64,000 bases of DNA from Panopea generosa (lineage: Eukaryota > Mollusca > Bivalvia > Adapedonta > Hiatellidae), in assembly GCA_029582155.1 (NCBI GenBank), contig CM055898.1:31078020-31142019 (forward strand). Direction: 5' to 3'. The notes beneath the pieces are model-generated. The model searched no databases and was not told the DNA's origin. It saw only the letters and a list, made by a program, of their open reading frames with translations. Shown here in pieces: positions 6,576-53,684 of the stretch (the first letter of the stretch is position 1; each line of letters starts with the position of its first letter). Made by a program: the position numbers and the translations under genes.

Positions 6576-24227
<17,652 letters not shown>

Positions 24228-24320
24228 TGTCTTTTTTTTTTTAAATCGATTAAATTATCAACGTTTAAAGTATTTTTCGAAACAGGATATCAAGGAATCA
24301 TATCTTTAACTACATATTAA

Positions 24321-24328
24321 CACTTCCT
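24321..24328. promoter_or_regulatory. ETS-type site (GGAAGTG on the minus strand)
   Basis: CACTTCCT lies about 50 bp from the CRE. ETS-family sites are common in TATA-less divergent promoters. A short motif like this also occurs by chance. Confidence 0.35.
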
Positions 24329-24376
24329 TGTCAATCAAAACATTACACCTCTTTTCTGAATGAAACATGGCGAATG

Positions 24377-24384
24377 TGACGTCA
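24377..24384. promoter_or_regulatory. Palindromic CRE (TGACGTCA)
   Basis: Exact eight-base consensus for CREB/ATF factors, near the middle of the RAB21-TBC1D15 intergenic interval. The palindrome could serve both directions. CRE sites near start sites are a known feature of housekeeping and divergent promoters; use here is inferred. Confidence 0.65.
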
Positions 24385-24592
24385 TCTGTCACGAGTAAGT
24401 CTCTTAAGCAAGTAATAAAATATTGAAATTAACATATTTTTAGTTTATTTATAAAACTATTATGATATATTAACATCAAACAACATACAGTGTGTGCGTT
24501 TTTAAATATAAATTTTTATTTATTTATTTTTAAATTGGTATTTTCATAACATATAAATAATTAATTTGTTAAGAACTTAAGCGATACCTGTC

Positions 24593-24643
24593 ATGAACCA
24601 AAATAAACTGTGTAATTCGGAAATGGAGAGTGAAGAAACAAAG
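24593..24643 (+). CDS. TBC1D15: TBC1D15 coding exon 1
   Basis: 51 nt, residues 1-17, MNQNKLCNSEMESEETK, donor GTATTT, phase 0. A TAA lies in frame four codons upstream, so 24593 is the farthest possible start in this frame. A second in-frame ATG at 24623 would give a 7-residue exon. The exon is chosen because its phase joins exon 2 in frame; the N-terminus is poorly conserved. Confidence 0.7.
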
Positions 24644-27600
24644 GTATTTTGCCTCAATTTAACAATTTGGTATTGCTTCATTGACCATAGTTACATGTAA
24701 AGGAAAGAAAACATGATAAAGAAATCGTTGAATTAAAATGTAATATGAATCAACCACAATTTTACGGAATAGTTTGACATTGAAAATGATGACATTTTCC
24801 ATTAAATTATCCGGAGAAGACGGGCAGGATAATCTGCTCATTACTAAAATCAGATTTCCTGATTATCACCATCGTCATTTGATCTTACAAACTGAAACAT
24901 CTTGGTTTAATTCACAATTCTATGTTGCATACATCCGTTACCTTATTAATGGTCAGTCATGTTTGTATACAATTGGGTGACACATTGACATTACTACAGT
25001 CAGATCTATAGGTGAGTTATGACTCATGATCAGTACACAACTTGTGATGTTGAGTTTGGGGTTAGTACATAATACCTGGTTGCTAGCCACTTGATTGTTA
25101 TAGGATTGAATATGTTGCAATACAAGGTTTCGAAATCTTTCAAATAATAGTTTAACAATACTTATATATAAATACACTGACACTTTCATTTTAATGCATT
25201 ATCGTATAAGTCTTGAGTTTTACATTTTGTGTTGAATTATATTTTGTATTGAGCATTTTTTTTTAAAAATTATACACTGTGGAAACAAACATTCTTGTAT
25301 CTGATGAAAAGTCAAGATTTACTGACAAAAAGACAAGTTTTACATAATGCCTGGTAAGATAAGGGTCCATGTTGGACTTCATGGCTCACACTTTGGTAGA
25401 AAAATGTTAAGTTTAAGAAAAAGAATTTATCCCAGAGACAAATCTTGTCGTATATATAGTTCACACCATAAGATGGATGGAATGGTATGTATGACTTTGG
25501 AATGATATATGTTTTGTTTTTTTATAAAGTTGATATATTCCAGGAATTGATTATTCATTTTAAATTCTGCATAAAACAAAGCTATATATTTGATAAATAT
25601 TTGTATAATCATCATTTATATATTTGTATATATACATAACACTCTAATCTGAATAAGCATATATATTTTCTTTTACAAGTACAATTACATATGTATTGTT
25701 TTGCCAATTGTACATTAGTTGGCAATACATGCCGGAGCTATGGATGATACTGGCACAAAAGTTAGAGTAACTACTTTGACAACTCAATTGAGCACTCAAT
25801 TTTGAATTTTAGCTCCAAAATGTCTGAAAAGCAACACTTATATTTACACAAAAATGTCATCTATGTTTATATTTTCAGACTATCTATGAGCGTGATGGTG
25901 TATATATACACATAAATGTGAACAGTCACACCTCAGACAGAGATGCTCATTTACCAGGACGTATATATCTACTTCAGAAGGTATGCCCATTTATACTCTG
26001 ACAGCTGTATAGATCTTCCATTTGCTTTTATAAATGCAGGATGCTCCATGGCCTATTTGTCTAAGGCACACTGTCTGAAGATCACTTGCATATGTACACT
26101 CAAAGCTGTGATCAATCCTTATAGAAAGTTTGCCAAATATTAATATACAAATACTCAAGTGCAGATTGATAGCCTAAGGTGCAAATATACAACTTAGATA
26201 TTTCTAACACTGCCTATTCTTATTTGTTTATATATAATCATGTACATGTATAAAGGACATAGCTTTCATCGTAGTTTAATATAAATCAAAATTGACGTCA
26301 AAATACAGCGGTGCCAATATGCAAATTTACCACAAAAAAAAGTTGTTTAAGTAGGATAAAAGCTTGATATTGTCATTATATACAAGCGTTCTATGTTATT
26401 GGTTTATTTTTATCTACTTCACATTTATTTTAACTCTGTTATTTGTGGATGAGTGGGCTAAAGCACTGCCTTGAGATCACTTACCTCTTACTGCTGATGT
26501 TGTGAGTCCGAGCCCATCACAGTCTGATGTGAAAAGTTAGCCACTTATTGTCAGGTTGAGAGGTGTATATAAATGCAGCGTGTAATGTGTTGAAAATGGA
26601 AAATGATGTCCTTTATTTTTTAAGCCTGAAGGGACATTTATAGAATGGAAGGCAGAAGAAGTGATGTCACTGGATGGACCATCTGAGCAGGATTGGGCTG
26701 TGATAAGTTCCGTGGGTTACCAACCTGACAGAGGATCAGATACTTGTAAGTATTTTAGTTTCTGGAGATGTATATTAAAGTCTCGATTCTATATGTAAGT
26801 ATGTATTTCATTATTATTAGATCTTTATTGAACTGGGTTATATTTATTTCATATTTACATCATGTAGTTATAAAACTTTCAGAAGTAGTGTCAAGTGCAA
26901 ACATACAAGCATGGATGTGTCATTTTAAACCAAGAATGTTATGTTGATTTAAGGTGATTTTCAGTGAAAAAATAACTCATGTTTAAATTAAGATTATGCC
27001 TAGTTTTGAAGACTGGTTTCCAGCTCTTTATCATATGTATAAAGGTCAAGGTTCATTTATTTTGCAGCCAATGACCAGAAACAGGAAAGGAAGAAGTACA
27101 ATTTGAGTTTTGACGTTTTGGACCTGAAGAGTTTCAAGAGAAGTGCTCCGAGCCATGGTTGGGCGTATATTATCTTTATACTGAAAGATGGCACCACATA
27201 CCCAGCTGTACACTTCCATAGTGGAGGCAGTAAGGCTCTTCTGAAGGAACTTGAGAAATTTGTACACATAAGAAGGTGAGGTTTACCTGCATGGTCAAAT
27301 GTATGTTTGTGCAAATACTAAAAAGGAACTTATGTTTAACATGTAAATTTAACATTTGTAATTTATCAAATTATTACATATTATACTTCTAGATTTGTCC
27401 AACATGTCCAATGTGTTTTTGTCCAGGGTTGCTAATTTGTCAATATGTTTGCATCAGTTATTCATTTTTTTAAATTCAACTCTGTTTAATGCTCTGCTAC
27501 TAAGCGTAAGAGATATAGCAAGATAATACCAGTTTGATTGGCATATGTTTGTACTCTTGCTGATCATTTGTTTAAAACTTTTTTACTTTATATCAGTTGT

Positions 27601-30600
27601 GAACCAAGTTTTAACAGCTTAGACAAAACATGCTCAGAGTCTTTCTGGGCAAAACAAGTGCAAAGCATATGTGGATAAACTGTTTTGCTGACAGACACAA
27701 CACATGGCCATTGGAGGGAATCGATTCCATCAGTTCATAATTATTAAGGATGGCAACGAATGGCAATATTGATATTCGAATATTCGGTCATTCTTTCGAA
27801 CGAATATTCGAATATATTCGGTCAAGATCTTAAAAATAAATAATCATCAACTTTCTATCTCGAACGTTTTTACTCGCCATTTTTGTTACTTTCTCTTTCA
27901 GCGGAAACGGTGCTGATGTATAAATACTAAAAAGCAAACAATTGGAATATCATTGTCGTCAAGATTCAACATGACGTGGAACTCGATGATGCATAATTAA
28001 TAATAATAAATTAATAAATGCTATGTTATATTAGCTTTACTAAGTTAAATGTTCTTATGTTTGTATAGTTTATAAGTAATTAACTATTTATAAATGAAAT
28101 TGAAAAAAAAACATAAAAAAAAAAATATATATATAAGTAAATTCGTCTACTACTTAGCGCATTCATTATTCACAAGTACATAAACGGCCTTCAAATCAAA
28201 GAAGTGTGGTCTTCAATTAGGTATAAGATTGGTAAATAAACAAACTTGCTCTCACCTTTTCAAAACAGGGTGATTTACAACGGACCGTAAAGGCAGATCG
28301 ATAATTAAAATTGCCTAAGGCAAACAATTAAAGGATTACCGATCAGGACTCCTTATCACCTTGACAACGTCCAATTGACACCCGTCTTTGGAGGAAATCG
28401 ATAATTACCGTGTCTTAACCTGGTTGATATAACACCTTTCGAAACCATTTGTGGCAAAAATATTGAAATTGAAAAAAAAAAAAGAAAACAACTTGAATTT
28501 ACTATACTTTTTTAATATTTTTTGTTGTTGCGAATATTCGAATATCAATATGACATTCGAATATTCGGACGTATGACCGAATATTCGAATATCTGAATAT
28601 TCGTTGACATCCTTAATAATTATATAAATGTAAAGATTTTACTGACTGTTTATTCCAGATCTCCAAATGACAGTCGACTCTTCATCATTCAGGAGCATGA
28701 CCCAGAGGCATTGTCTATGTCATTTGATGAGCTGAACTTGTTCCAGGACTCCCAGGGAGACTTAGTATCTGTAAGTCGTTATCAGTCCAGGCTTCTGCTT
28801 CACCAACATCTTAAATACTTTACTCAAGTTGACTGGCTATTTATTTATTTATTTATTTATTTACTCATTCATTCATTCATTCATTCATTCATTCATTCAT
28901 TCATTCATTCATTCATTCATTCATTCATTCATTCATTCATTCATTCATTCATTTATAAATTCATTCATTCATTTATTCATTTATTCATTCATTCATTCAT
29001 TCATTCATTCATTCATTCATTCATTCATTCATTCATTCATTTATTTATTTATTTATTTCATGGAAAACATATATGCAATTTTTAACTGGAACCAGTCTAA
29101 AATGATCACTTTGCTGCATTTCTTTGATTTAAGTTTTTAAGTATTTACCTAAATATGTTGGTGAAACAAGGGTCAGGCTTCTGTTTAATGAATATTTGAC
29201 TTAAATACTGAAAAACTTTACTCAATTTAACTGGTATTTATTTGTTTTTTTTATATAATAATATCAAAGAAAACATATGCATTCTTTTTACTGAAACCTG
29301 TGTAAAATCATGATCATTTATCTATTTTTTGTATATTTAAGTTTACAATGATACAATGGCGGGTCCTGCTCATCCAGCTATATTTTGTATATTTAAGTAA
29401 ACAATGAATGGTACAATGGCAGACCCCCTCCCCCCACCTCATTACTCCCATATATTATTAAAATCTACTATATTTTTTACTGACAAATATGTGTGCAACC
29501 ACCCCCCTTACTGAAATCCTGGATCCTCCCCTGGTATAATGCACAATGTTCTTCTGATGGGAAACATTGATAATTTTCAAACTTTGAATAATTCATAATA
29601 AAAATACCAGTATTATTTTTTGTATAAGAGATATTTCCCTTTTGTCACTCATACACAATCACAGACTTGTGTAAATGGTTTCCTTTGAGAATTTATCAAT
29701 CATTTTTTGCTTAAGAATTTCTCTAATTAGAGAGCATTCCTGTTAATGAATTGTACTTAAGATATCTCTTATGAATTGAAAATATTGTTTCAGAAATTTA
29801 TCAAAGACCCATATAGTACAACAATGGGTAGCTTTTCCAAGGTGACTAACTTCCTGCGGGATGTGTTGATGCAGCCCGATTCAGACGAGAATCAGCCATT
29901 GAAAGTTGAAGAAATTTTGAATGAGGACATTCCTGGTATGGAGGTTAGCAACCAAGATGAGCCTGGATATGAGTTTGTAACCAAGGTAACAAATGCTTTT
30001 TTTGTTTGAAATTGACATGTTTCATGTAAATTTAGCTCATCTGAGCTTGATGGGCTCACACATCATTTTAGTGTCAGCTACCACAGGCTTATGATGTAAC
30101 ACAATGCTTAGAAGGTAAAGCAGTGTATTAGTTAACAAAAAAAAAAGATTCTTTGATGTACATATATGCAAGAAAATATTAAACAAGAATATATGATTGT
30201 GCTGACAAAATTCCAGCCCTCAGTGTTGCTGTTTCGTTAAGCAGAGTATCAAATCTGACAGAAACAGTGACAACTCTTGTGAAATGTCATTTCCTTACAC
30301 ACCAGATAAGGATTTCTGCATTTTTACCAGGGTAAGATATTTTTATCTCACCCAAGGGCGGAGATAAAATTCTCACGCTGCCATGTTGGAATCATCTAGA
30401 TGATGTATACAATATGGCGTAAATCATATAATTAAATGTCTTAAAAGTGGTTGTTGTAAAATATATATTTATAAATTAAGTTAAAATAATTATTCAGTAT
30501 ATTTGGTATGCAAGAAAAAGAAGCATTCATTGCTTTTTTGGTTCAGATAAAAAATTCCTTCTCTTGGGAAAACTGTTTTTGCAGGAATTTGGCAAAACAG

Positions 30601-33600
30601 TTATCTCTCAGGACAGAAATTTCTATCTGAACTTAAAACCCATGTAAGATTCTTAACATCTGAACCTTCTACCCATGATAAAGGTTTTTTGTAATGTTTG
30701 ATGTACGTTTATTATTGCACCCCTATATCTGGACATGTATATAATGTATCTGTTGCAGACAAAACTACCACCACGCCCAGACGTTACTCGTGAGACGCCC
30801 CTCACATCACAGCAGTGGTCAAAACACATGGATAAGGAGGGGAGGATTATCAATGTGGATGAGGTCAAAGAACATATATTTAGAGGGGTAAGAGAATATA
30901 TAAAAAAACATGTGTGATATTGCAAATATTTTTTTTTGTCACTATGCAACATGGAGTCGTAATTTATCATTTTTAGCTCACCAGAACGAATGTCCAAGGA
31001 GAGCTACTGCTATGACCCTGGTGTTGTCAGGTTAAACTTTTGTGTTAAAGAAAACCGGTTTTGAACAGTAGAAACCGATCCCAAAACTGAAAAACCAGTG
31101 AGTTTAGAAGCCCTGGATTACACACACCTTGCATTTTATGTAAAAGAAGTCAGTTGCCTGTGAAATATGAATGATTAATTTGCCAGATAATTAATTCTTC
31201 CCCTGCTATTTTATCAACATTTAGGAGAGGGAGGTGCTTCTATATAAGTCCTTGTTGGAAAATATCCAAATTTTGACCTCTAAAAAGCCCAGACAATGCT
31301 AACATCTTGTGATTTATCGCCATCCATAAACTGACAACCTAATTTATCTACATATTTGCTGCCTGTTATACATGAATAGTAAATGCTTATTTTGTTGTTG
31401 TTGCTTCAGGGAATTGATGCTGCTATCAGGATAGATGTGTGGAAATTCTTGCTCGGTGTATATGAATGGGACTCTACATATGCCAGTAGAACTAAAACAA
31501 GAAAGCGTAGATTGTAAGTATTTAACATATATTGTAACTATTTAACATAGAATGCAAGTACAGCCGAACCTTTCTTAAGTAGCCAATCAAGGGAAGGAGC
31601 AAAAGTGGCCTTTTAAGACATGTTATTGCTTAATACAGGCTAATATGCACTGAAAGCATAACAATGGGGTATAGCAAATATGGCTGCTTAAGACAAGTGG
31701 CTGCTTAATGGAGGTGACCGCTTACACAGGTTTTACTGTATTTGACTTAGATCGTAAGTATTTAACATGTAGATATAAATAGATTATGACAGATTGTAAT
31801 AAAGTTATGCACTGTTAAAATACTGTACTTTAAGACTGTCAGCTGACATTAACCAGAGTGTGAGACCCAAGCTTGACCTGTACCTTTATGTCCTCTGTTT
31901 CTGAACGTGTGTGTTTATACACCATTAATCACTGCCAACTGCCAATTAGATCTGTTTTTATTTAGTATTAAATGATTAGAATGGGGAGACTATGTTATTC
32001 TATGATTCTCTGGGATGTATGCATGTTTTTGTAGTTTTGAATCACTTCTCAAGCATCCTCTGAATAGTAAAGTTTGTTATTAAAGAAGAATTGTTCCACA
32101 GATATGTGTTTTTGAATGTATTAAACCCCAGCCTCTGAATTACAAATAGTGACTTGTAACATGCACATACTTCAGTGATGGTAGTGTGTTCAATAAAGTG
32201 TTGCCCACTTATGCCAGATGTTGTGCGTCCAATCCCCAGCTCAATCCAATGCCTCTCAATAATAATACTCAGGACTGGTTCTACCCTTAAGGAAGTACTC
32301 GGGAGCGGTTCATTGTTATAAGTTCTTAGCTTCCAACGCAGTCGAGCTAAATTAAATTAGTGTAAATTAAACTAATGATGGAATCTAGGCTGTAACAAAA
32401 ATATTCATATATTATACAAATGTATATTTGTTTGGTTCTGTATTCCTTCATAAAACCTGGCCAGGTTAGCCCAAACTGTAGTACATATGACTATCAATCC
32501 TGCGGTGGTGATTGCGAATCCCTTCCAATCAGTCTTGTTGATGATTGATATACGACATTGCATCTCATTGTTATTTGTCTCTCACCGCTGATGGAAGTTG
32601 ATGAATTATCAGTTACTTTAAAAGACGGATGTGCATGATTACTGGTTTATCTTCCAGGATCCCAAAAAAGAGTAATTAGGTTAACTGATTGTCTGTTAGC
32701 CCTTGTAGGCATACAAATGGCGCTACATATCCAATAAAACAATTCCTGCACAAAAAAGATCTTGCCAAAGATAACTGCAGAGCTGTAGAACAAAAGACAA
32801 AAAGCGACCTTGGTGTTAGTGAATTTGCTGTACAACCAGAGATTTGTAACACAAAAATTACGAAAACAAAAAATAGATCTTGACTGCTTACAAAGTAGTT
32901 AAATGTATTTTTAAACCAGTTGCTTTTATGCTTGTAGGGGAAAAAAGTTAATATGAAATTCATATTTTTGTTTTAATCTGATGGTGTACAGTACAAAGTT
33001 TGCAAGTTTACATTTTCAGTGTAATATATGGTGGTCTAGTGGTACGCATGCCTGCTCCAAGATCCAGAGGTCCCTGGTTTGATTCCAGGTGTGGGTTTTC
33101 AAAAATGCTATCACATTATCTTAACCGGGCAAGGCTCTGTAAAAATATGCAATCTTTAGAAGTAGAAATAAAGCATTTGGTCCTGTATACAGGGAGAGTC
33201 ATACCCAGTGCACATAAAAGATCTCACTGATCTTATTATATGTCAATCAATGATTCAAATGCCCAAAATACCTCCCTTGAAAATGTGACTTCCTACATGC
33301 ATAATAATCAGATATTGATTACTGGAAGTGAAGGAAGGAGAAGAATAGTATGGTGGTAATAATGTAAGTTAAATAGAGTATAGTGGAAGTTTTTATGACA
33401 GATCATTAACCTACATATACTTGTTACAGAGACGACTATTTTCGTATGAAGTTACAGTGGACCACCATTAGATTAGAACAGGAAAACAGATTCTCTTTGT
33501 TCCGCGAAAGAAAATGCTTAATAGGTAAGTGATGTGTTTTATTTGGCTTCCATTTTGTTTGTGGATACCTCGCTACATCCAGTTCAATTATAGATCCTCT

Positions 33601-36600
33601 TTGGCAGAGTGATTTAAAGGATTTTTTTAAAAATTTAAAAAGCCAAAATGATATATTGAAAAAGAATTTCCTAACTTGGCCCATGTGCCAAGGTTAGACT
33701 AAAAACACTTGAAATTACAACATTTTTTATGAGGCCTGGCAAGGATAGCTGGGTACAGCATAAAGGTGTCCCATAAGCCCGTAAATTGTGGCTGGCCCTT
33801 TCAATAGGGATTACACTACAATAAACAAACACTTTACTTACTGCTGATATCTTGTGACTTATGTAATATTTTCAGAGTTGGGACTTTAAGGGATAATTCC
33901 TAAGATACTGGTGTTATTCTTTGGCAAATTTGCTAGCCTCTACTTTGTTATCAGCATGTAATAAAACTTTTCTAGTTGGAGGTAGTAAACTGGCATTTGC
34001 ACCTCTGTTTAGTATTGAACATATGATTTCCAGTCAACATTTTAGTAGCAAAGATGCAAATTTCTAAAACTAGTATTAATAAATCCACATTTGGTTGTTA
34101 TTTAGAATTGATTTATATTGGAGAGATATTTCCTTACAGAAAAAGACGTTACAAGGACGGACAGAACACACAAGTTTTTTGAGGGTGAGGGAAATCCAAA
34201 TCTTCAAGTACTCAACGACATTCTCATGACCTACTGCATGTACAACTTTGACCTTGGTAAGTCTTTGGAAATAGCTTTTAGATTAAAAGTATGTTTACAG
34301 ACGATAAAACATCAAAGATTGTAAATAATCTAGCATTTAGCATGATCAGCAGTATACAACCTGGTTTAAAAGTTACAAAATGTCACCAGAACCCGAGATT
34401 ACAAAACTTTGTTCAACTGAAACTTGAAAACAAATGGACTCATTATACAAATAAATGTAAATGTCTTAAATTTGTACTACAAATCTTGCCTTGAAATTTG
34501 AAGCTGACAATGGTTGAGTCAAATGTTTGCTCTTTAGTTTGTGGTTTTATATAAATCCTGGACATTATGTTGGAGTACAGAAACTGAGGTGAGCATGAAA
34601 ATCTGAACCCCCACCCCCTTCCTATACACACACACACACTCCTCTTTTTTTCATTCAATTTAAAATATAAAATGAGTTTAAACTATATTTTCTTGAATAA
34701 ATGACAAACGTGCCATCAGCTGACAACACAGGGTGATTGGAAACAATGTTGACAAGATCTTGGATAAGTTCTTCACACTGTCTGATCAGATCTTAACATG
34801 ACAGGTGATGCACATCATACATGTCTGGGTGTGCAATGTTTAACCATACTTAATTTAAGTTTATTATTTTATCTGATATTGAATTCATTAGTACTTCAGG
34901 TATATTTTATTTAGTACATAACCAATTGTTACAATTGGAGGTTTAAAAAAATATGACATCACAGTAATGTAGGGAAATATGTGGATATAGTCAAATCTAT
35001 GGAAGTGGTTAGCTCTGTCAAAAAGTCACGTGTCATAAGCAGCCACATTTTCTGTTTCCCATTTCTATGCTCTCAAAGCAAAGTAACCTGTATTTATTAA
35101 CAACCTGTCTTAAAATACCTATTTTGCTCCTTCCCTGACTGGTTGCTTAAGACAAGTTTGACTGTATAGCTTTCAATATAGCTAGTTGTACAGCAAATGA
35201 AGCCCACGTTGGTCTGCAATTTGGCACACTCTGGTTCAATTTTATTTTATTTTGACACAACATTATATACATGACTGTTTTTGTTTCAGGCTATGTGCAG
35301 GGCATGAGTGATCTGTTGTCACCCATCTTGGTTGTCATGGAGAATGAAGTGGACGCCTTCTGGTGTTTCGCTGGTTACATGGATAGAGTTGTGAGTACTT
35401 TGTAGTTTCCTTTCTTCGGATGGAGGGTTAATGTTATTTTTAACACATTTTAATTTAACAGTGCAGTGGATATTGAGGATATTTGTTTGGTTTGGTGTAA
35501 GAATGAATTATATTTAATCAATTGATCACCAAAAGTCAGCTTCACAAGTGGGTTGCTACGAGTGAGAATATAATTTTGGTGATCTTACACCAAAACAAAC
35601 AAATTTCCATGTTAGCTTGTCGGGATAAAGTCCAAGGAGAGCTATGGCCATGATCCCGGCATCGGCGTTGTCGGCGTCTGTAGACACCCAGGTTAAACTT
35701 TTGCGTTTAAGTTTAAGATATCTATGCAACCACTCATTGGATGTGAATGAAACTTTGCATGTAGGTTCACCATCATCAATGGAACACACAAAGACAAACA
35801 AGAACCATAACTCTGGATTGCATTTTGGCACAGTTATGGCCCTTTTTGGACCTAGACACCCAGATGTGAGCTTTGTTGTCTTCTGACAACTCTTGTTATT
35901 TTATGCATTTACATATTTTTTTGTTTATTTTGACTTCAATTCGACATTTAATAATATTGGACTAATAAAGAAAAATTAAAAAGTACTTTTTTTAAAAGAA
36001 ATTAAATTAATATCTAAGGACAAAAAAAATTGAAAATTTTTTTTTTCATAATTTCACTGTGTGAAACAGTGGATTACCATAAATAATCCACTGAGAAATG
36101 TCTGTAATTCATCAAATAGCATAAAATAAAGAGTGATTACTGCTCCCACTAAGAATTTGCATGTTGGATCTCGTGTTCAACTTGATAGTCTCTCAAAAAT
36201 AACACTCAGTGCTGGTTCTACTCTGGAAACAGACTCGAGAGTGATTTACCGTATATATAAGCTCTGAGCTTTCTCCCCAATCAAACTAAAAACAATTAAT
36301 GTAAACTACCGTTGATATTACATATATAATGTATTGCAATCAGTTTTATTGGTCTCCAGAGAGCTCCGACTTGCGCACATGGAACACTTCATTCATGTAA
36401 CCAGTAGGTGTTTCAGATGAGCTTTTCTTCAAAATGAGTATTTTACTCCTTAAATTTGTATGCAATGTTTATTTTTAAAATATTGCTATTTGAAATAAAC
36501 CAACCAACACTGAAATTGTCAGCATCCCGTGGTTATTTTACCACTTAGCCTAAACTTAACTGCTTTATGAAGAATAATGCTTAAATACACTCCCAAAACA

Positions 36601-39600
36601 TGCCTGTCCAGAACACTGAACCAGCCCTTCTGCAAGTAAATGGTAAACATTTCATTTGATTTTAGTTTAAAACTGAATTAAGTGATCTTGAAATAGCGCC
36701 TCAGAATTTGTAACCACAGAGGACCTCCTGTATTTACACCAATAATAGATTGTTTGATAAAACCTGAATTCTTGCAATGAGGTTGATGAATAAAGCTGAG
36801 ACATTATTAACTCCTGGCCTGCAGTTCTTGACAAATGGTATATATGTGTAAACAATGTTTTTGCCAGGGCCCAGTTTTCAAAGCTTGGTTTGCTTAACCT
36901 TGGGTTAAGTGAAATTTTCGAATTACAATATTTTCAGATGCACAACTTTTTAGGTTATTATTTTATTGAACATTTTGAAAATATATACGCCATTTTGTTT
37001 CTAAAAATGCATTTAAATTGCCATAAAATCATTAAGTATAGAAAATATTGAAGTTACAAAATTTCATTTAACCCAGAGTTAAACTACATGTAAACAAGCT
37101 TTGAACAACAGAGCTCTGATTTTGATTTTTTATTGTCATTTTGAAAAAAAATTGACAGAATTCTTAAATACAAAGACAATACTTTGTAAGTATATAAAAA
37201 ATTAGGAAACTGCAATTTGATTGGATAGTTAGAAGCATGGCAAACAAACAAGGATGGAATCTAGTCTGATGTCGATGTTCAATAAAGATATACATGTCGG
37301 TTAAACTAGAACATTTTGTCTGAGAGAGATCATTACATAATTATGTAAAATTTGTATTCCGTTCATTTGTGCAATAAACTAGATGCAAAGAGCAGTTCAT
37401 ATCAGACTGCAGTGTGAATTTATGCTAAACAAATTCAGTCACATCGGCATTAAAAGGTATTATAAACAACTTAATTTTATGGCAGAGATACTCAGTAGGT
37501 GTAATTAGTTCTAAATATGGCTTTTACTGCCTCATTTTAGATTGTCAAGGCAAGGCTACAATGATTATTAGGTGTGGATTCAGATTAAGGGTGGGGGTGA
37601 TTTTAGCTTAATTCTCAATAAAGGAAAATTGTAAGGGGGCTAATTTATTAGCTATGCATTCTTATTTGGGGGATTTTAGGGGGAGGGAGCACATAACATT
37701 TTGTGAGATTGGGAGGACATAATACAGTTTACACTTTTTTGGGGGATATATGCTGACCAATCTTCAACAAATGTTTATGTCCATGAAGTTCTTGAACAAG
37801 TTATATCAGACCAGAATGAACATAGTTATGGCCCTTGAATGATGAAAAATAACATAGTTATAGCCCTTGAATGATGAAAAAATGTTGTTTTTGTCACATA
37901 AACACTTACCATCTTTAGTTTTCATAAGATCTTCACCAAACTTGGTCAGAATGTTATTGACAATGAAAACTTGGACCAGTGCTTGGACCAGCCATATCGG
38001 GCTAAAATTGACAGAGTTATGTAATTGACTATGAAAGCTTGGACGCATTCATGAACTGGCAACATCAGACCAGGAGGGTCAGTGTTTGTGTTGTACCTAG
38101 AAACTAACAGAAATATATTGTAATACAATTGCCTTTAATTTTCAGGGTGATAATTTCCAAATGGACCAAGAGGGCATGAAACATCAGCTGGCCCAGATAC
38201 ACAAACTTATGCAGTACACAGATCCAGAACTCTGTAACTACCTAGGTATTAAACAATCTTTTTACACAATATACAAATGGTCATTTTGCACACTCATTGC
38301 CCGATGATGTAAAGATATCATTAGAATTAGTTGGTAGAAAAAAGACCCATATCCAAAATTTCTAACTGTTCCCCTGTTAGCCCTCAATGGCAAAACATTA
38401 CACTAAATATTCAAACAAACAAAACACACTTTGTTACATCATGAATAGACTTTAACGATTAAAGGGTCGTGGGTTCAATCCTCCACCACGGCTATGTGTG
38501 GTGTCCTTGAGCAAGACAATTTTCCGCATATGCTTACATATAGTACTGGTTTTATCCAGGAAGACTTCGAGCATGATTTGCCTAAGTTGTAAGAACTTGT
38601 TTCACAATAGAAGTAAAATAAATAAGTTTAAATTAAATTGTTCAGCTAACATTATAAGAATCTTACAAAGGTTGGAGGTTAGTATAACAAAATTCAGTCC
38701 TGAGGGATAACTGTTTTTGAGAACCGATTCCTGCGAAAACAGTTCAGAATTTGCTATCTTAACTGAAAAAATCATGTAACGTTATTTTTCTTGCCTGCCA
38801 AACACATTGGATACTTACTTTATTTGACATCATTAAAGACACTGTTAAGACAATAAAATAGATATATTACATCATATGTTTTAATAAGTCGAAGTCAGAG
38901 CAGGGTCAGATAAGTGCGTGATTGGGGTGTAGGATGAAGACTCTGTACGCGGTAAAAGTACACGGAAATTTAATTTTCACCCCATTCTCATATCATTCAT
39001 ATGCAGGGAATCTCTTTATCAAATTTATATATCATTTATTGGCCCAATCTTAGAATATGCCACTGCACTGTGATGGTAGTGTTGGATAACTGTTCCTACT
39101 ACGAGAAAGATAACCTAGAAAAAATTCAACATGAAGCTGCCAGAATTGTTACTGGTACAACAAGATCAATATCCATTTCAAAATTATAAAGAAATTGGCT
39201 GGTTATCTCTATCAGACAGAAGAATGTATCAAAAATTGATATTGGCATATAAAATAAAACATGGTATGACACCAAACTACTTAATAAATTTATTTCCCGA
39301 TACAGTAACAGAACAACATACAATCCTAGAAACTCACAATATCTTGATATCATAACCAGACGAACTGAGCTCTTTGCAAATTCTTTTATTCCATCAACAG
39401 TTTCGTTATGGATTCAACAACCAGTTGCTTTAAGGGAAGCACCACCATTATCAATATATAAATGAAACCTTATTAATACTTGCTTTCAACCAGTTATAGT
39501 TCCAAAACACTTTAACTATATGAATATTGTCTGCCCAGCATGCATGGCTAAAAGATAATTGTAGTTACTCAAATCGTGATTTTTTACATTAATCATATAG

Positions 39601-42600
39601 AAAAATTATCCAACATGTATCTATGCATTGAGTGGAAGATGCTGTACATTACTTTTTTAAATGCATTCTGTTTGTAAAACAAGTTTATTTCAAAACACAA
39701 GGTTGTTCCATCCACTCAATGTCAAAATGCTGTTATATGGATCAGAAGATCATCCATATGAAGACAACATAAATCTCTTCAGAAGTGTTCAAACTATCAT
39801 TCACGAATGAAGAAGATTCCAATAATTATTTTCGATATAGTATTTTGTTTTCTCCCCTGACTCTGTAACATTTACCACAACATGACCGATCACTTGAAAT
39901 CAGTGACCAAGCAGATAATACTTTATAATTTTTTTTATATATGTGTGTGTATATCTTCTAATAATTTCTTATTTAATTTCGTTTAAAAAAAACATTGAAT
40001 CATAAAATAATATGATTCCGGCTTTTCAGTTTAGATATTTCAATATTCATTTATGTGTGTGTGTGTGTATGTATGTGAATGCATGTGTATGTGTACGAGC
40101 GTGTGTGCATACATTAATGCAGATGTGTGTACATATGTGTGTGTGCATGCGTGTGTCTGTGTGTGTTGGCGTGAGTATGCATGTATAGTTTCTCATTAAT
40201 TACACTTTATGTCATTCATATTTAGCTGCCATGAATATTATTTACCTAAACCATTGTAAAAATTGCAAAATATAGTTGAAAGGGATGGCCGTATCTTATG
40301 TTGAGAGAGAACTTGTGGCCAGACCCTTTTGCCTTAAATTGTATTTGACTTATGTGCATGATATATGTTGTACTATGTGTTTATATGTCAATAAAATATG
40401 TTTAAACTAAACTATATCACTCACGTTTTATACTGATACTTTTTCAGAGAGTCACGAGTCTGGCAATTTTTACTTCTGTTTCCGTTGGATCTTGATTCAC
40501 TTCAAACGAGAATTCTCCTTCCTTGATGCACAAAGGTTATGGGAGGTAGGTGGAAGTCTTGATCTTGTTCTTTCATTTGTATAGGTTAGTCTTAAATAAG
40601 TTCTATAAGCTTTTGAGGTTTTTATCTTTATTACTTTTTAAGAATTCATAGACATTTAGTTTAAATTGCTGTCATAAGATCGCTTGCCTCTCATTGCTGA
40701 GATTGTGGGTTTGAACCCAGTATGTTTCCAGAATAATTATGTGAGAAAGTTTTGCCAGTTACTTGTGGAAGGGCAGTGGTCCTACTCTGTGTTTTGGGCC
40801 GGGCATGGTTGGCTCAGTCAGTAGCATGTCTGACTATCAATCCATGGATCATAAGTTCTAATCCTCACCCAGCCACAGTTTCCATGATCATTGAAATACG
40901 ACACTGTGTTTCATTGTCATTTGTCTCTGACCCCTGATTAAAGTGGGGAAGTTATCATTTACTTGTGGAGATGGGTGTACTAGATTGCTGGTTAACAGGT
41001 CACCGTGTTCTATGAAAGAGTGGTTAGGTTAACTTTTAATCTGTTGCCTTCAATGGTATGAACATGGAGCTAAATATTCAAACAAACAAGCAAAATGTCT
41101 AGGGGATGGTTACATATACCGTCTTCCATGGCCTAGTGGTTAAAGTGTCCACCTAGGAAGCGGAGGTCGAAGGTATGAATCCCGGTGGAAGCACTTGGAT
41201 TTTTTCTGACTACCATCCTGACTCCTGGCAGTGGTAGCGTTTGGGAAGTAACTGTGTACAACATAAAGGTTTCTCATAAGCCTGGTGTGGCTGGCCCTTT
41301 CAATAGGGGTGACACTATAATAAACAAACAGTTTTATATACCCATTGCATACTGATGGTAGTTTTATATATCCATTATTGCATACAGGTGGTAGTTTTAT
41401 ATATCCATTATTATACATACAGGTCGTAGTTATATATCCATTATTACATGCAGGTAGTAATTTTAATATCCATAGCTGTTTATTATTGTTCAAGGTGATA
41501 TGGACAGACAAACCATGTAAAAACTTCCATCTGTTGATATGCCTCGCTATACTGGACACTGAGAAAACTACGCTCATGGAAAACAAGTTTGGCTTGACAG
41601 AAATCCTGAAGGTTTGTTCGCTGATAATCTTTCTAATTTATTTACAATGCCATACATAATACCCTTTAGAGAATTTTGAGATTTATAAATGAATACTATG
41701 AAAAATATGAAAATGCTCTTTTTCTCATACATTTGTGCAAAAATATTGTTCAGTTTAAAATCTGAAACATTGTCATTGGAGAAATATATTGGATTGTATT
41801 GAATTTCCAAAAGTGGCTCAAAATGGTGAAATTTGAGAATTTTCAAAAATCTTTTTCACAACAATCAGTGAGTTAAATGTTTGGCATTAGTGAGTGAGGG
41901 TATAGGGTCATGTAAGAAAGGGGACTTTAAGTTTGATATAAACATACTATGTAGCCAGTAGAGCATCACCAGACCCTCTTGGGCCTCTTGTTATTTTATT
42001 CATTTAATACATACATAATTTAACATTTATTACTTTACTTAATATAATCCCAGAGCATATAGATAAATAGTATGTGCATTATTACAATCATTTACCTCCA
42101 CAGCTTATAACAGTTTTATCATTGTGTGTATGTTATATCTGCTTTCACATTAAGAAAGGTATATCTTTTTTTTTTCTTTTTTTTTTGAGTTACCGTAAGG
42201 TTGCCCGTTTATTACCCCGTAATGGGTCTGCAGGGGTCGGGGCCATCCCGCTGCAAACCACACAATAATAACATGTATACAAGTTTAGCAACATTTTGCA
42301 AAATATATATGATATTTAAATCACATTTATTTGTTATTCGTTTTGACTTGCATAGGTGCAAAAAATTCTCAAAACAGGATAGTTACACGTTAAATATTCA
42401 CTATATATACTGGAATATCTGCTCGGCTAAAACATACATGCTGATCATTACAGATATTCCAGCATATATAGAAATTATTTATTAGAATTAATGTTTTTCA
42501 TATTTCATATAAGTTATGTTAACTTGAAAAAAAGCGAAACAAAAGCATTAAGGAATTTATTATTTCGTTCTTTTTGATTTTGCATAATTGCAGTACGTTA

Positions 42601-43254
42601 ATATTCACTATATATTGAAATATCGGTTCAGATAACATGTACAAACTGATCCTTACCGACATCTCAGCATATAGCGAGAATGTTTAGTTGAATTAATGCT
42701 GAAAAAAAGGTATATCTTTCACTTCCACAGCTAATAACAGTTTTATTATAGTGTGTATGTTATATCTGCCTACACATTAAATAAGGTTCATGTATATCTT
42801 TATTTATATGTTCATTGTTGTGTGTATTTCATCACTACAGCACATAAATGACATGAGCATGGCAATACACCTAGAAGACACGATGAAAAAAGCTGAAGGA
42901 ATATACCAACAGTTAAAAAATGCTAAAAGACTACCTGATGTCGTTAAAGAAATCGTTGGGTTTCCCGTGTCTCCGGCTGGATCTGCTGCTAGTTCTGGCA
43001 AAAGCACACCAGTTCTTCCACCGATGCCAGCCAACACACCAATATCTGTACCGGCTAGTTCCGGTACCTCGACAGTGACTAATAATAGTGTGAGTGTCAG
43101 CTTTAGTAAAGAGAACAGTGCAAGACTTCAGTTACCAGACTTTCTGCGAGACAATGGACAGAAATCTAACAGCGGCACAGCATCTCCGGATGATAGCAGT
43201 ATTGAGATATTATCCGAGAATTGTACTAGCGGCACAAACTATTACTACAACTGA
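24593..43254 (+). CDS. TBC1D15: TBC1D15 Rab GTPase-activating protein, complete gene (15 coding exons)
   Basis: TBC-domain GAP; vertebrate TBC1D15 acts on Rab7 and is recruited to mitochondria and late endosomes. Fifteen exons with matching phases join to 2061 nt (686 aa plus stop), against 691 aa for a human isoform. The N-terminal part (residues about 18-200) matches the family's Rab-binding region, starting IYERDGVYIH and including PAVHFHSGG and MSFDELNLF. A linker carries SKVTNFL and IPGMEV. The TBC domain runs from about residue 303 to 550. Both catalytic fingers are intact: IxxDxxR as IEKDVTR at 371-377 (Arg377) and YVQ at 412-414 (Gln414), followed by GMSDLLSP and ENEVDAFWCF. The C-terminal tail is Ser/Pro-rich and low in complexity. 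TBC1D17 is the closest alternative name, but an invertebrate gene would be the common ancestor of both. Confidence 0.94.
25879..25980 (+). CDS. TBC1D15: TBC1D15 coding exon 2
   Basis: 102 nt, residues 18-51, TIYERDGVYIH through RIYLLQK. Strong match to the human IIYEQEGVYIH segment. Acceptor TTTTCAG, donor GTATGC, phase 0 on both sides. Confidence 0.92.
26440..26605 (+). repeat. SINE family B copy abutting TBC1D15 exon 3
   Basis: Plus-oriented, diverged: GATCACTTACCTCTTACTGC, box B-like GAGTCCGAGCCC, and 3' body GTGTTGAAAATGG. Its end lies about 20 bp before the exon 3 acceptor. Confidence 0.65.
26625..26745 (+). CDS. TBC1D15: TBC1D15 coding exon 3
   Basis: 121 nt, residues 52-91 plus one base, PEGTFIEWKAEE through DRGSDT. 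Acceptor TTTTTTAAG, donor GTAAGT, phase 1 out. A SINE (family B) ends only about 20 bp upstream of the acceptor. Confidence 0.88.
27068..27275 (+). CDS. TBC1D15: TBC1D15 coding exon 4
   Basis: 208 nt, residues 92-160 plus two bases. It includes VLDLKSFKRS, WAYIIFILKDGTTYPAVHFH and GGSKALLKELEKF, matching the Rab-binding N-terminal domain. Acceptor TTTGCAG, donor GTGAGG, phase 2 out. Confidence 0.95.
27590..27735 (-). repeat. SINE family I, partial
   Basis: ATGCTCAGAGTCTTTCTGGG and following sequence parallel the 1705-1877 copy; the tRNA-like head is lost. Confidence 0.45.
27742..28616. mobile_element. Non-autonomous TIR element, about 870 bp
   Basis: Inverted ends AATTATTAAGGATGGCAACG and its near-exact complement at 28602-28620 (GTTGACATCCTTAAT). 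Subterminal AATATTCGAATA-type motifs occur repeatedly at both ends. The target duplication cannot be separated from the palindromic end. Located in TBC1D15 intron 4. Confidence 0.6.
28659..28770 (+). CDS. TBC1D15: TBC1D15 coding exon 5
   Basis: 112 nt, to residue 198, SPNDSRLFIIQEHD through QDSQGDLVS. Acceptor TTCCAG, donor GTAAGT, phase 0 out. Confidence 0.93.
28785..29310. repeat. Duplicated repeat element split by a microsatellite
   Basis: The segment with GGCTTCTG and TACTTTACTCAAGTTGACTGG (28785-28835) recurs at 29172-29245, and the segment around ACATATGCA...ACTG recurs at 29059-29100 and 29266-29310. The related sequence GGAACCAGTCTAAAAT occurs again at 44040. Confidence 0.55.
28841..29058. 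repeat. (TTCA)n / (TTTA)n microsatellite
   Basis: About 215 bp of four-base repeats with TTTA at both edges and a TTTATAAA interruption, in TBC1D15 intron 5. The Phe-Ile-His-Ser frames across it are artefacts of the repeat. Confidence 0.98.
29794..29985 (+). CDS. TBC1D15: TBC1D15 coding exon 6
   Basis: 192 nt, residues 199-262, KFIKDPYSTTMGSFSKVTNF through EPGYEFVTK. Equivalent to human EPYTATMIGFSKVTNY and EEPGFEVITR. Acceptor TTTCAG, donor GTAACA, phase 0. Confidence 0.95.
30320..30630. repeat. Dispersed repeat family G, copy 1
   Basis: AAAACAGTTATCTCTCAGGA and flanking sequence match, in inverted orientation, the blocks at 38685-38985 and 53685-54015 (GAGGGATAACTGTTTT, then ACCAAACACATTG and GGTAAAAGTA/GGTAAAAATA). 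Probably a non-autonomous transposon family. Confidence 0.45.
30759..30887 (+). CDS. TBC1D15: TBC1D15 coding exon 7 (linker into TBC domain)
   Basis: 129 nt, residues 263-305, TKLPPRPDVTRETPL through EVKEHIFRG. Matches the pre-TBC segment EGRILNVDNMKQMIFRGG of human. Acceptor TTGCAG, donor GTAAGA, phase 0. Confidence 0.95.
31410..31513 (+). CDS. TBC1D15: TBC1D15 coding exon 8 (TBC domain start)
   Basis: 104 nt, residues 306-339 plus two bases, GIDAAIRIDVWKFLLGVYEW. This is TBC motif A (RxxxWxxLLG-like). The basic stretch RTKTRKRRL follows. Acceptor TTCAG, donor GTAAGT, phase 2 out. Confidence 0.95.
31559..31740. mobile_element. MITE family F, copy 2 (reverse orientation)
   Basis: Ends TACAGCCGAACC and GGTTTTACTGTA; internal AAGGGAAGGAGCAAAAGTGG and GCTTAAGACAAGTGGCTGC. 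182 bp. Confidence 0.7.
32170..32378 (+). repeat. SINE family H copy
   Basis: GTGCGTCCAATCCCCAGC (box B-like), CTCAGGACTGGTTCTACCC and tail AATTAGTGTAAATTAA shared with copies at 36170, 38455 and 58525. Confidence 0.6.
32460..32720 (+). repeat. SINE family A copy
   Basis: CTATCAATCCTGCGGTGGTG, GATATACGACATTGCATCTC, TCTCTCACCGCTGATGG and GGTTAACTGATTGTCTGTTA in family order. Confidence 0.75.
33030..33240 (+). repeat. tRNA-derived SINE (family E)
   Basis: Box A-like GGTGGTCTAGTGGTACGC and box B-like GGTTTGATTCCAGG, then a body containing GTAAAAATATGCAATC. Only one copy seen here. No cloverleaf closes well, so not a functional tRNA. Confidence 0.55.
33430..33524 (+). CDS. TBC1D15: TBC1D15 coding exon 9
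   Basis: 95 nt, to residue 371 plus one base, DDYFRMKLQWTTIRLEQENR through ERKCLI. Acceptor TTACAG, donor GTAAGT, phase 1 out. Confidence 0.95.
33720..33836 (+). repeat. SINE family C, 3' fragment
   Basis: GGGTACAGCATAAAGGTGTC, GTGGCTGGCCCTTTCAATAG and ending AATAAACAAACAC, as in the full copy at 41118-41333. Confidence 0.7.
34140..34256 (+). CDS. TBC1D15: TBC1D15 coding exon 10 (arginine finger)
   Basis: 117 nt, residues 372-410 plus one base. EKDVTRTDRTHKFFEGEGN carries the catalytic Arg377 of the IxxDxxR motif, then DILMTYCMYNFDL. Acceptor TTACAG, donor GTAAGT, phase 1 out. Confidence 0.97.
34988..35166. mobile_element. MITE family F, copy 3
   Basis: CATAAGCAGCCACATTTTCT, TTTGCTCCTTCCCTGACTGG and the end GACAAGTTTGACTGTA. 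About 179 bp, same orientation as copies 1 and 5. Confidence 0.7.
35290..35390 (+). CDS. TBC1D15: TBC1D15 coding exon 11 (glutamine finger)
   Basis: 101 nt, residues 411-444. GYVQGMSDLLSPILVVMENE carries catalytic Gln414 in YVQ. Acceptor TTTCAG, donor GTGAGT, phase 0 out. Confidence 0.97.
35590..35900. repeat. Dispersed repeat with GCTATGGCCATGATCCCGGC core
   Basis: Contains AGGAGAGCTATGGCCATGAT and AGCTTTGTTGTCTTCTGACA. Its end reappears inverted at 63957-63990 and its start, diverged, at 30975-31040. Sequences of this kind recur through the window; the class is not clear. Confidence 0.5.
36170..36310 (+). repeat. SINE family H copy
   Basis: ACACTCAGTGCTGGTTCTAC, GAAACAGACTCGAGAGTGAT, AGCTCTGAGCTTTCTCC and a tail like the other copies. 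Confidence 0.6.
36615..36728 (-). repeat. SINE family B, degenerate fragment
   Basis: CCCTTCTGCAAGTAAATGG, AAGTGATCTTGAAATAGCGCC and CACAGAGGACC keep the family order, but much of the middle is missing. Confidence 0.5.
36867..37118. mobile_element. MITE with long inverted repeats, about 250 bp
   Basis: Left arm GGGCCCAGTTTTCAAAGCTT... and the complement of the right arm share TTCAAAGCTTG, GGGTTAA, TGAAATTTT and CAATATTTTC in order over about 65 bp. Lies in TBC1D15 intron 11. Confidence 0.65.
37740..38060. repeat. Repeat with internal direct duplications
   Basis: AGTTATGGCCCTTGAATGAT and AGTTATAGCCCTTGAATGAT follow each other within 60 bp, and CTTGGACCAGTGCTTGGACC is internally doubled. Similar GTTATGGCCCTTAAAT text occurs at 53393. 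Confidence 0.4.
38146..38245 (+). CDS. TBC1D15: TBC1D15 coding exon 12
   Basis: 100 nt, residues 445-477 plus one base, GDNFQMDQEGMKHQLAQIHK through ELCNYL. Acceptor TTTTCAG, donor GTATTA, phase 1 out. Confidence 0.95.
38455..38640 (+). repeat. SINE family H copy
   Basis: GGGTCGTGGGTTCAATCCTC is a good box B region, then GTGTCCTTGAGCAAGACAAT and CTTCGAGCATGATTTGCCTA. Confidence 0.55.
38685..38985. repeat. Dispersed repeat family G, copy 2
   Basis: CAGTCCTGAGGGATAACTGT, TTTTTCTTGCCTGCCAAACA and GGTAAAAGTACACGG correspond to the block at 53685-54015 in the same orientation. Confidence 0.45.
38990..40410 (+). mobile_element. 5'-truncated non-LTR retrotransposon (LINE) 3' fragment
   Basis: Conceptual translation across at least two frame changes gives the C-terminal end of a reverse transcriptase: ISFIGPILEYAT, then DNCSYYEKDNLEKIQHEAAR, IVTGTTRSISISKL, EIGWLSLSDRRMYQKLILAY and KIKHGMTPNYLINLFP. 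The arrangement is typical of the thumb/tail region in CR1/L2/Jockey-type LINEs. The non-coding remainder has a TG-rich stretch (40055-40170) and ends with CAATAAAATATG at about 40391-40402. Frameshifted and 5'-truncated, so inactive. In TBC1D15 intron 12. Confidence 0.8.
40055..40170. repeat. Imperfect (TG)n microsatellite
   Basis: TG-rich run with GTATG and GCATG variants, in the LINE 3' region. Confidence 0.85.
40448..40545 (+). CDS. TBC1D15: TBC1D15 coding exon 13
   Basis: 98 nt, residues 478-510, ESHESGNFYFCFRWILIHFK through DAQRLWE. This is the conserved FCFRWLLIxFKREF motif of TBC domains. Acceptor TTTCAG, donor GTAGGT, phase 0 out. Confidence 0.96.
40676..40796 (+). repeat. SINE family B copy, 3' truncated
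   Basis: GATCGCTTGCCTCTCATTGC, box B-like GTGGGTTTGAACCCAG and ACTTGTGGAAGGGCAGTGGT; the 3' half is missing where a family A SINE begins. Confidence 0.65.
40797..41090 (+). repeat. SINE family A, full length
   Basis: Head GGTTGGCTCAGTCAGTAGCA (box A-like) and CATAAGTTCTAATCCTCACC (box B-like), body GAAATACGACACTGTGTTTC and GTCTCTGACCCCTGATTAAA, tail GCTAAATATTCAAACAAAC. The best reference copy of the family in this window. Confidence 0.85.
41118..41333 (+). repeat. SINE family C, full length
   Basis: Box A-like CATGGCCTAGTGGTTAAAG, box B-like GAAGGTATGAATCCCGGTGG, body GTGGCTGGCCCTTTCAATAG, end CACTATAATAAACAAAC. Confidence 0.8.
41335..41470. repeat. Minisatellite, about 33-bp unit, four copies
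   Basis: GGTAGTTTTATATATCCATT units with decreasing similarity, ending 25 bp before the exon 14 acceptor. Confidence 0.8.
41495..41611 (+). CDS. TBC1D15: TBC1D15 coding exon 14 (TBC domain end)
   Basis: 117 nt, residues 511-549, VIWTDKPCKNFHLLICLAIL through FGLTEILK. Acceptor TTCAAG, donor GTTTGT, phase 0. Confidence 0.94.
42085..42790. repeat. Direct duplication enclosing two related stem-loops
   Basis: CCACAGCTTATAACAGTTTT with GTGTGTATGTTATATCTGC at about 42098-42150 is repeated at 42726-42772, just before TBC1D15 exon 15. Between lie stem-loops 42397-42474 and 42603-42681, which resemble each other (TTCACTATATAT left arms). Confidence 0.6.
42841..43254 (+). CDS. TBC1D15: TBC1D15 terminal coding exon 15
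   Basis: 414 nt including stop TGA, residues 550-686. HINDMSMAIHLEDTMKKAEG matches human HINELSMKIDVEDILCKAE. From about residue 595 the tail is rich in Ser, Pro, Thr and Asn with no recognised domain, ending TSGTNYYYN. Acceptor CTACAG. Confidence 0.94.
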   Translation, partial: HINDMSMAIHLEDTMKKAEGIYQQLKNAKRLPDVVKEIVGFPVSPAGSAASSGKSTPVLPPMPANTPISVPASSGTSTVTNNSVSVSFSKENSARLQLPDFLRDNGQKSNSGTASPDDSSIEILSENCTSGTNYYYN

Positions 43255-51924: not shown

Positions 51925-53060
51925 GAAGGATGGATGGATGGATGGAATGGACATCAGATGGACGTATTAGAATGATTATTGAAAAGACAGAATGAAATGG
52001 AGGGATGGCATGGCATGGATGGGATGGGGAGTTATTATTTAACTTTTTACTAGTATACCAAACCGTTGCAAGGATGGAAAAAATGGGTGGCGGATGGATG
52101 GAATGGACATCAGATGGACGTATTAGAATGATTATTGAAAAGACAGAATGAATTGGCGGGATGGCATGGCATGGATGGGATGGGGAGTTATTATTTAACT
52201 TTTTACTAGTATACCAAACCGTTGCAAGGATGGAAAAAATGGGTGGCGGATGGATGGAATGGACATCAGATGGACGTATTAGAATGATTATTGAAAAGAC
52301 AGAATGAAATGGCGGGATGGCATGGCATGGATGGGATGGGGAGTTATTATTTAACTTTTTACTAGTATACCAAACCGTTGCAAGGATGGAAAAAATGGGT
52401 GGCGGATGGATGGAATGGACATCAGATGGACGTATTAGAATGATTATTGAAAAGACAGAATGAATTGGCGGGATGGCATGGCATGGATGGGATGGGGAGT
52501 TATTATTTAACTTTTTACTAGTATACCAAACCGTTGCAAGGATGGAAAAAATGGGTGGCGGATGGATGGAATGGACATCAGATGGACGTATTAGAATGAT
52601 TATTGAAAAGACAGAATGAAATGGCGGGATGGCATGGCATGGATGGGATGGGGAGTTATTATTTAACTTTTTACTAGTATACCAAACCGTTGCAAGGATG
52701 GAAAAAATGGGTGGCGGATGGATGGAATGGACATCAGATGGACGTATTAGAATGATTATTGAAAAGACAGAATGAATTGGCGGGATGGCATGGCATGGAT
52801 GGGATGGGGAGTTATTATTTAACTTTTTACTAGTATACCAAACCGTTGCAAGGATGGAAAAAATGGGTGGCGGATGGATGGAATGGACATCAGATGGACG
52901 TATTAGAATGATTATTGAAAAGACAGAATGAAATGGCGGGATGGCATGGCATGGATGGGATGGGGAGTTATTATTTTACTTTTTACTAGTATACCAAACC
53001 ATTGCAAGGATAGAAAAATGGGTGGCGGACGGATGGAATGGGCATCAGATGGACAAATTG
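51925..53060. repeat. 156-bp satellite, 8 copies, dimeric higher-order pattern
   Basis: The anchor GGACATCAGATGGAC occurs at 51949, 52105, 52261, 52417, 52573, 52729 and 52885, with a variant at 53041: an exact 156-bp period. Each unit has a GGATGG-rich half and an AT-rich half (AACTTTTTACTAGTATACC). Internal copies are nearly identical apart from an alternating position. Confidence 0.97.
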
Positions 53061-53684
53061 GAATGAATAGAATGGCTGGATGGGATGGTGAGCTATTCTG
53101 AACACGTTGTCTTGTCATCTGTCCGTTCTTAAACCTTTTGTTGTGTGCATGCCCATTTTTCATTGGATCATCACCAAAAATATAAAGTTGTTATTTAACC
53201 ACAATATCTCGCACATTTTAGTTCTAGAACTGGCTAAGTTGGATAACCAATATCAGACCATTAAAAATGAAAAAAAAATCACCATTTGACCATATGTGCC
53301 CTGTAGCACCTTCATTTTTAATTTTAACTTACACAGTAGTAACCATAATTTCTTTGACAAGTTTTTGAACTGTCTAAACTAGATAATTAATGTTATGGCC
53401 CTTAAATTGTCAAAAATTGTATTATTTGAAGTTGTATGCACTCCACACCTGCACTGGTATCCATTGACATACAAGTAGTTATATATATCTCTAATATCTC
53501 AACCGACCAAATTTAAAGGTCAGAGGTATAGCCCTTTTATTACAAAAAAAAAGGCCTTCTTAAGTGTCTTCTGCTTAGTGATTGTCTGTTCGCTCTTGGA
53601 AAATGAGAAAGTTTACCAGTTACTTGTAGAAAGACAGTCAGTTCAGTTCAGATTATAAGAATTTTATATGACTTTGAGGTTGGA

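Follow-up and report, generated by a model that had tools for sequence, protein, structure and literature searches.

RAB21 and TBC1D15 in Panopea generosa start close to each other and run in opposite directions, which raises the question of whether they are transcribed from one promoter. Both gene models were built from the raw sequence of the window (the whole analysed stretch of 64,000 nucleotides, whose positions are used throughout), and the two genes are adjacent, on opposite strands (RAB21 on the minus and TBC1D15 on the plus strand) and with their 5' ends facing. Their start codons are separated by 365 bp and the genes diverge from there, so a common promoter may well serve both. An earlier note had placed the genes 365 bp apart on opposite strands, and the models bear this out as the distance from start codon to start codon, not between transcription starts. 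We consider it most likely, with a probability of about 0.6, that this is an ordinary head-to-head pair transcribed from one short shared promoter region. The features concerned are the following.

6576..24227, minus strand: RAB21 coding region of 6 exons and 212 aa, from GT-AG introns and homology (exons 24227-24090, 20607-20548, 12349-12242, 10627-10509, 8084-7996 and 6700-6576 in the exon model)
24228..24592, no strand: divergent gap of 365 bp between the start codons, putative bidirectional promoter
24322..24328, minus strand: ETS-type site, ACTTCCT on the plus and AGGAAGT on the minus strand (an ETS-type match occurs in 437 of 20000 gap shuffles)
24367..24411, plus strand: ATGGCG as a possible other start in frame, followed by candidate donors at 24395 and at 24412; with this start the CRE would fall inside a TBC1D15 exon
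24377..24384, no strand: perfect CRE palindrome TGACGTCA (89 of 20000 dinucleotide-preserving gap shuffles contain one)
24593..43254, plus strand: TBC1D15 coding region of 15 exons and 686 aa, first exon 24593-24643, last exon 42841-43254

The exons of both genes were placed by tblastn with the human proteins as queries, and their boundaries were set at in-frame GT-AG sites; identity checks against PDB and Pfam are independent of these queries and agree with the gene models. RAB21, whose start codon is at 24227-24225 on the minus strand, shows 75.2% identity over 210 positions with human RAB21. Among solved Rab structures its protein is closest to Rab-21 (1yzt, E = 1.4e-96), followed at a distance by the Rab5A family (E = 3.6e-45); the Pfam match is Ras, the GTPase domain is intact, and the C-terminus, GGCCS, carries the double cysteine. 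The TBC1D15 start codon (24593-24595) is the first ATG after an in-frame TAA at 24578-24580, and a second in-frame ATG at 24623, also a possible start, would lengthen the gap to 395 bp. TBC1D15 is 44.3% identical over 670 aligned positions with human TBC1D15. Its best PDB matches are TBC1D15 (5tuc, E = 7.2e-140) and TBC1D17 (E = 8.5e-119), with the next family at E = 1.3e-17. It has the RabGAP-TBC and PH_RBD (Rab-binding) domains of Pfam and the catalytic motifs IEKDVTR and YVQGM, that is, the IxxDxxR and YxQ of a TBC domain, all as found in the TBC1D15/17 group. Both gene models are intact by splicing and homology, and both proteins, judged from their sequences, look functional. In the genome of 1.47 Gb the only match of 24000-24660 is the region itself; neither another copy of the gap nor an allele of it was found.

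Elsewhere in the window, RAB21 intron 2 holds a minisatellite (13351-14360) of 70-bp and interleaved 31-bp units. A tandem array at 51936-53066 has a 156-bp unit in 7.3 copies with 98% matches, and an open frame of 368 aa on the minus strand is mostly made of this repeat. Ten of the many open frames listed were searched against Pfam (five to the right of TBC1D15, one to the left of RAB21 and four in introns), and none gave a match. No second gene was recognised in the 20 kb to the right of TBC1D15 (43255-64000), where the search covered the five open frames just mentioned and was not a full gene search.

If the two genes share a promoter, both transcription starts would be expected inside the gap. 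One start could instead lie elsewhere, owing to a non-coding first exon or a 5'-UTR intron in RAB21 or TBC1D15, or the CRE could fall within an alternative TBC1D15 exon; we regard this as rather improbable. Splice sites were scored with a table built from the 19 introns of the two genes, in which the real donors (n = 19) range from 0.93 to 10.79 and the real acceptors (n = 19) from 1.21 to 15.42. The donor at 24644, which closes the first exon of TBC1D15, scores 7.36 and is the best of the 25 plus-strand GT sites in 24228-24700, and the best plus-strand acceptor in 24300-24622 reaches only 3.31. These scores favour the first exon of TBC1D15 as the earlier note had drawn it, and speak against an upstream start of this gene. 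On the minus strand, however, the score of 7.34 for an acceptor at 24355 falls among those of the real acceptors, and RAB21 may therefore carry a 5'-UTR intron and begin further upstream. A start elsewhere would also be served by the ATGGCG at 24367, which opens an in-frame alternative exon. Its two candidate donors score 5.05 (24395) and 1.06 (24412), against 7.36 at 24644. For an exon from 24367 to join exon 2 in frame, the donor at 24412 would have to be used, and its score is close to the lowest of the 19 real donors; the donor at 24395 suits only a non-coding or out-of-frame leader. An alternative first exon in which the CRE is coding is disfavoured by these donor scores.

The CpG content of the gap points in the same direction as a shared promoter. 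The gap has a CpG observed/expected of 1.56 (8 observed and 5.1 expected) and the window one of 0.41, with 0.40 in the body of RAB21 and 0.42 in that of TBC1D15. The flanks (0.41 on the right and 0.45 on the left) are as depleted as the genes, and the depletion therefore extends beyond them. This depletion suggests gene-body methylation in this animal. In animals that methylate gene bodies, a CpG-normal gap between depleted genes is the trace of an unmethylated promoter. A region of this kind is what CpG observed/expected, an indirect measure of methylation, indicates here, and a CpG-normal gap within a CpG-depleted window fits a promoter. Among 634 windows of 600 bp, 24000-24599 ranks 13th in CpG observed/expected; 7 of the 12 higher-ranked windows overlap an inverted repeat at 27.7-28.6 kb, and the other 5 lie within 23.7-24.8 kb, where 3 of them overlap the inverted-repeat element at 23237-23960. 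Both elements are excluded from the figure of 1.56 for the gap.

Of these two elements, the first, of about 0.72 kb (23237-23960), lies in RAB21 intron 1 and has nested terminal repeats with 31-nt arms that are 90% complementary, and the motif GGACGAAGCGTACCA; by its sequence it looks like a MITE or foldback element. The second, of about 0.89 kb (27737-28623), lies in TBC1D15 intron 4, with arms of 25 nt (96% complementary) and 30 nt (90% complementary). It is rich in GAATATTCG, and the 600-bp windows with the highest CpG observed/expected of the whole stretch lie on it.

The earlier note had also reported a CRE palindrome and an ETS-type site inside the gap, and both are present, at 24377-24384 and 24322-24328. 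Jointly they occur in 3 of 20000 gap shuffles. It is worth noting that at least one motif from a list of promoter motifs of our own choosing appears in 17470 of 20000 such shuffles, so that finding some motif is expected and is weak evidence. Genome-wide, TGACGTCA has 45922 sites in 1.474 Gb, or about 0.011 per 365 bp, compared with 37650 sites for its reversed control. The window has a second TGACGTCA at 26293, within TBC1D15 intron 2 (25981-26624), and at least two per window are found in 11 of 100 window shuffles. On these counts, the CRE at 24377 appears uncommon here, yet not compelling. GABP, an ETS factor, is among the factors given as essential or typical for human head-to-head promoters in the part of PMC4089025 drawn on here. 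CREB has no occurrence in the main text of that paper, which leaves the CRE outside the factors given there as typical. In a reporter study, those genes which responded to GABP by activation in each of the four cell lines were already known as targets of CREB, according to the passage available from PMC3491394. Taken together, these two sources suggest that, for head-to-head promoters, an ETS site would be typical and a CRE compatible rather than typical.

The shared promoter would work as follows. A single promoter region of about 0.4 kb, open and unmethylated, would drive RAB21 one way and TBC1D15 the other. Activators bound to it, with an ETS and a CREB/ATF factor among the candidates, would maintain the open state, and transcription would begin at two core promoters placed back to back. 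The motifs in the gap would then be bound by factors, the two genes would be co-expressed, and their co-expression would matter to endosome traffic. We count in favour of a shared promoter the intact divergent models, the CpG value of 1.56, the donor at 24644, the rarity of a joint CRE and ETS match among the shuffles, and the literature on GABP cited above. Counted against it are the minus-strand acceptor at 24355, the commonness of motifs from the list, the fact that PMC4089025 leaves CREB unnamed in its main text, the CpG-normal inverted repeats nearby and the AT-richness of the gap, whose GC content is 24%. A shared promoter region is the most economical reading of a divergent gap of 365 bp. 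Of the earlier proposal of one bidirectional promoter for a Rab and a GAP of one route, the layout stands and the CpG signal fits, and the promoter itself is best called putative.

In a different reading, each gene has an independent promoter and the two simply happen to be neighbours: open chromatin is common to both genes, the regulators are separate and the expression levels are uncorrelated. Two core promoters would fit into the 365 bp of the gap. Moreover, the share of head-to-head pairs is put at 9.4% for human, 13% for medaka and 1.9-25.6% for insects in the consulted portion of PMC11676430; close divergent pairs are so common that closeness needs no function, and the layout alone says little on function. 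However, head-to-head pairs tend toward co-expression in the surveys covered by the same part of PMC4089025, none of them specific to RAB21/TBC1D15. We consider two independent promoters possible, though unlikely, and retain the shared promoter region as the preferred reading.

Could the GAP act on the Rab encoded next to it? TBC1D17 is reported to have in vitro activity on Rab1, Rab8a, Rab13, Rab21 and Rab35 (Fuchs et al. 2007, as cited in PMC13090580 and, for Rab21, in PMC3930140). Rab21 is among the suggested targets of TBC1D17 in the sections seen of PMC3930140, where the LC3 accumulation in TBC1D17-null cells is suppressed by Rab7 siRNA, pointing to Rab7 instead. By analogy with this close paralogue, which gives a precedent and no proof, TBC1D15 might act on Rab21. 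A more elaborate scenario, in which a Rab gene has stayed linked to the gene of its own GAP from early bilaterians onwards and both are here driven from one CRE-bearing promoter, with both rising with cAMP or stress signals and buffering active Rab21, strikes us as highly improbable. True co-regulation of the pair would make it a compact example in which gene layout keeps a GTPase and a likely GAP at a constant ratio. It would also give reason to try TBC1D15/17 on Rab21, a pairing reported, in the passages at hand, solely in vitro and for TBC1D17 alone. Without co-regulation, the pair would simply join the many other close divergent ones.

The head-to-head layout of RAB21 and TBC1D15 is not reported among the literature matches listed, as far as the titles and the beginnings of abstracts of these open-licence papers go. 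In the open-licence literature, no match was found for Rab21 microsynteny; Rab21 together with bidirectional promoters retrieved, to judge by the listing, only a review on promoters in rice and a paper on VE-cadherin, and TBC1D15 together with bidirectional promoters only a co-mention in which the two are unrelated. The main text of PMC8851819 names neither RAB21 nor TBC1D15. TBC1D15-RAB21 fusions in tumours are described in PMC12834770, PMC9039303, PMC8101136 and PMC7066141, in passages that do not give the gene layout.

Comparison with other animals bears on the age of the arrangement. In tetrapods, rab21 and tbc1d15 both lie near tph2, and in ray-finned fishes tbc1d15 is listed near tph2 and rab21 is not, in the portion of PMC6470480 used here. 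The two genes are near each other in P. generosa as in these tetrapod accounts, and since both lie near tph2 in tetrapods, their linkage may be old. The human genes share one strand instead of diverging; the head-to-head layout would then not be conserved even if the linkage is. The neighbourhood also differs in that the two matches of a genome search for DUF92 (tmem19-type) both fall on contig C16, with none on C5. A larger conserved block was considered and rejected: with DUF92 on C16 only, the tetrapod block is not kept whole.

TBC1D15 itself resembles the Rab GAPs TBC1D15 and TBC1D17 of vertebrates in being full length and in having the Rab-binding and TBC domains with the arginine and glutamine fingers. 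Vertebrates have these as two paralogues; here there may be one or two such genes, PH_RBD matches being found at two places in the genome, at TBC1D15 and on contig C6 (C6:62698550-62698708). The C6 match has E = 1.4e-16, against 7.4e-5 for the single-exon match listed for TBC1D15, and perhaps belongs to an SGSM-type GAP.

With the bidirectional promoters known from animals, the gap shares flanking genes on opposite strands, a spacing of start codons far below 1 kb, an ETS-type motif and a normal CpG content. It differs in being AT-rich, unlike the bidirectional promoters of vertebrates, and in being known from start codons rather than transcription starts. RAB21/TBC1D15 is thus one more case of a common animal layout, with an unremarkable, putative bidirectional promoter between two genes that make a functionally suggestive pair.
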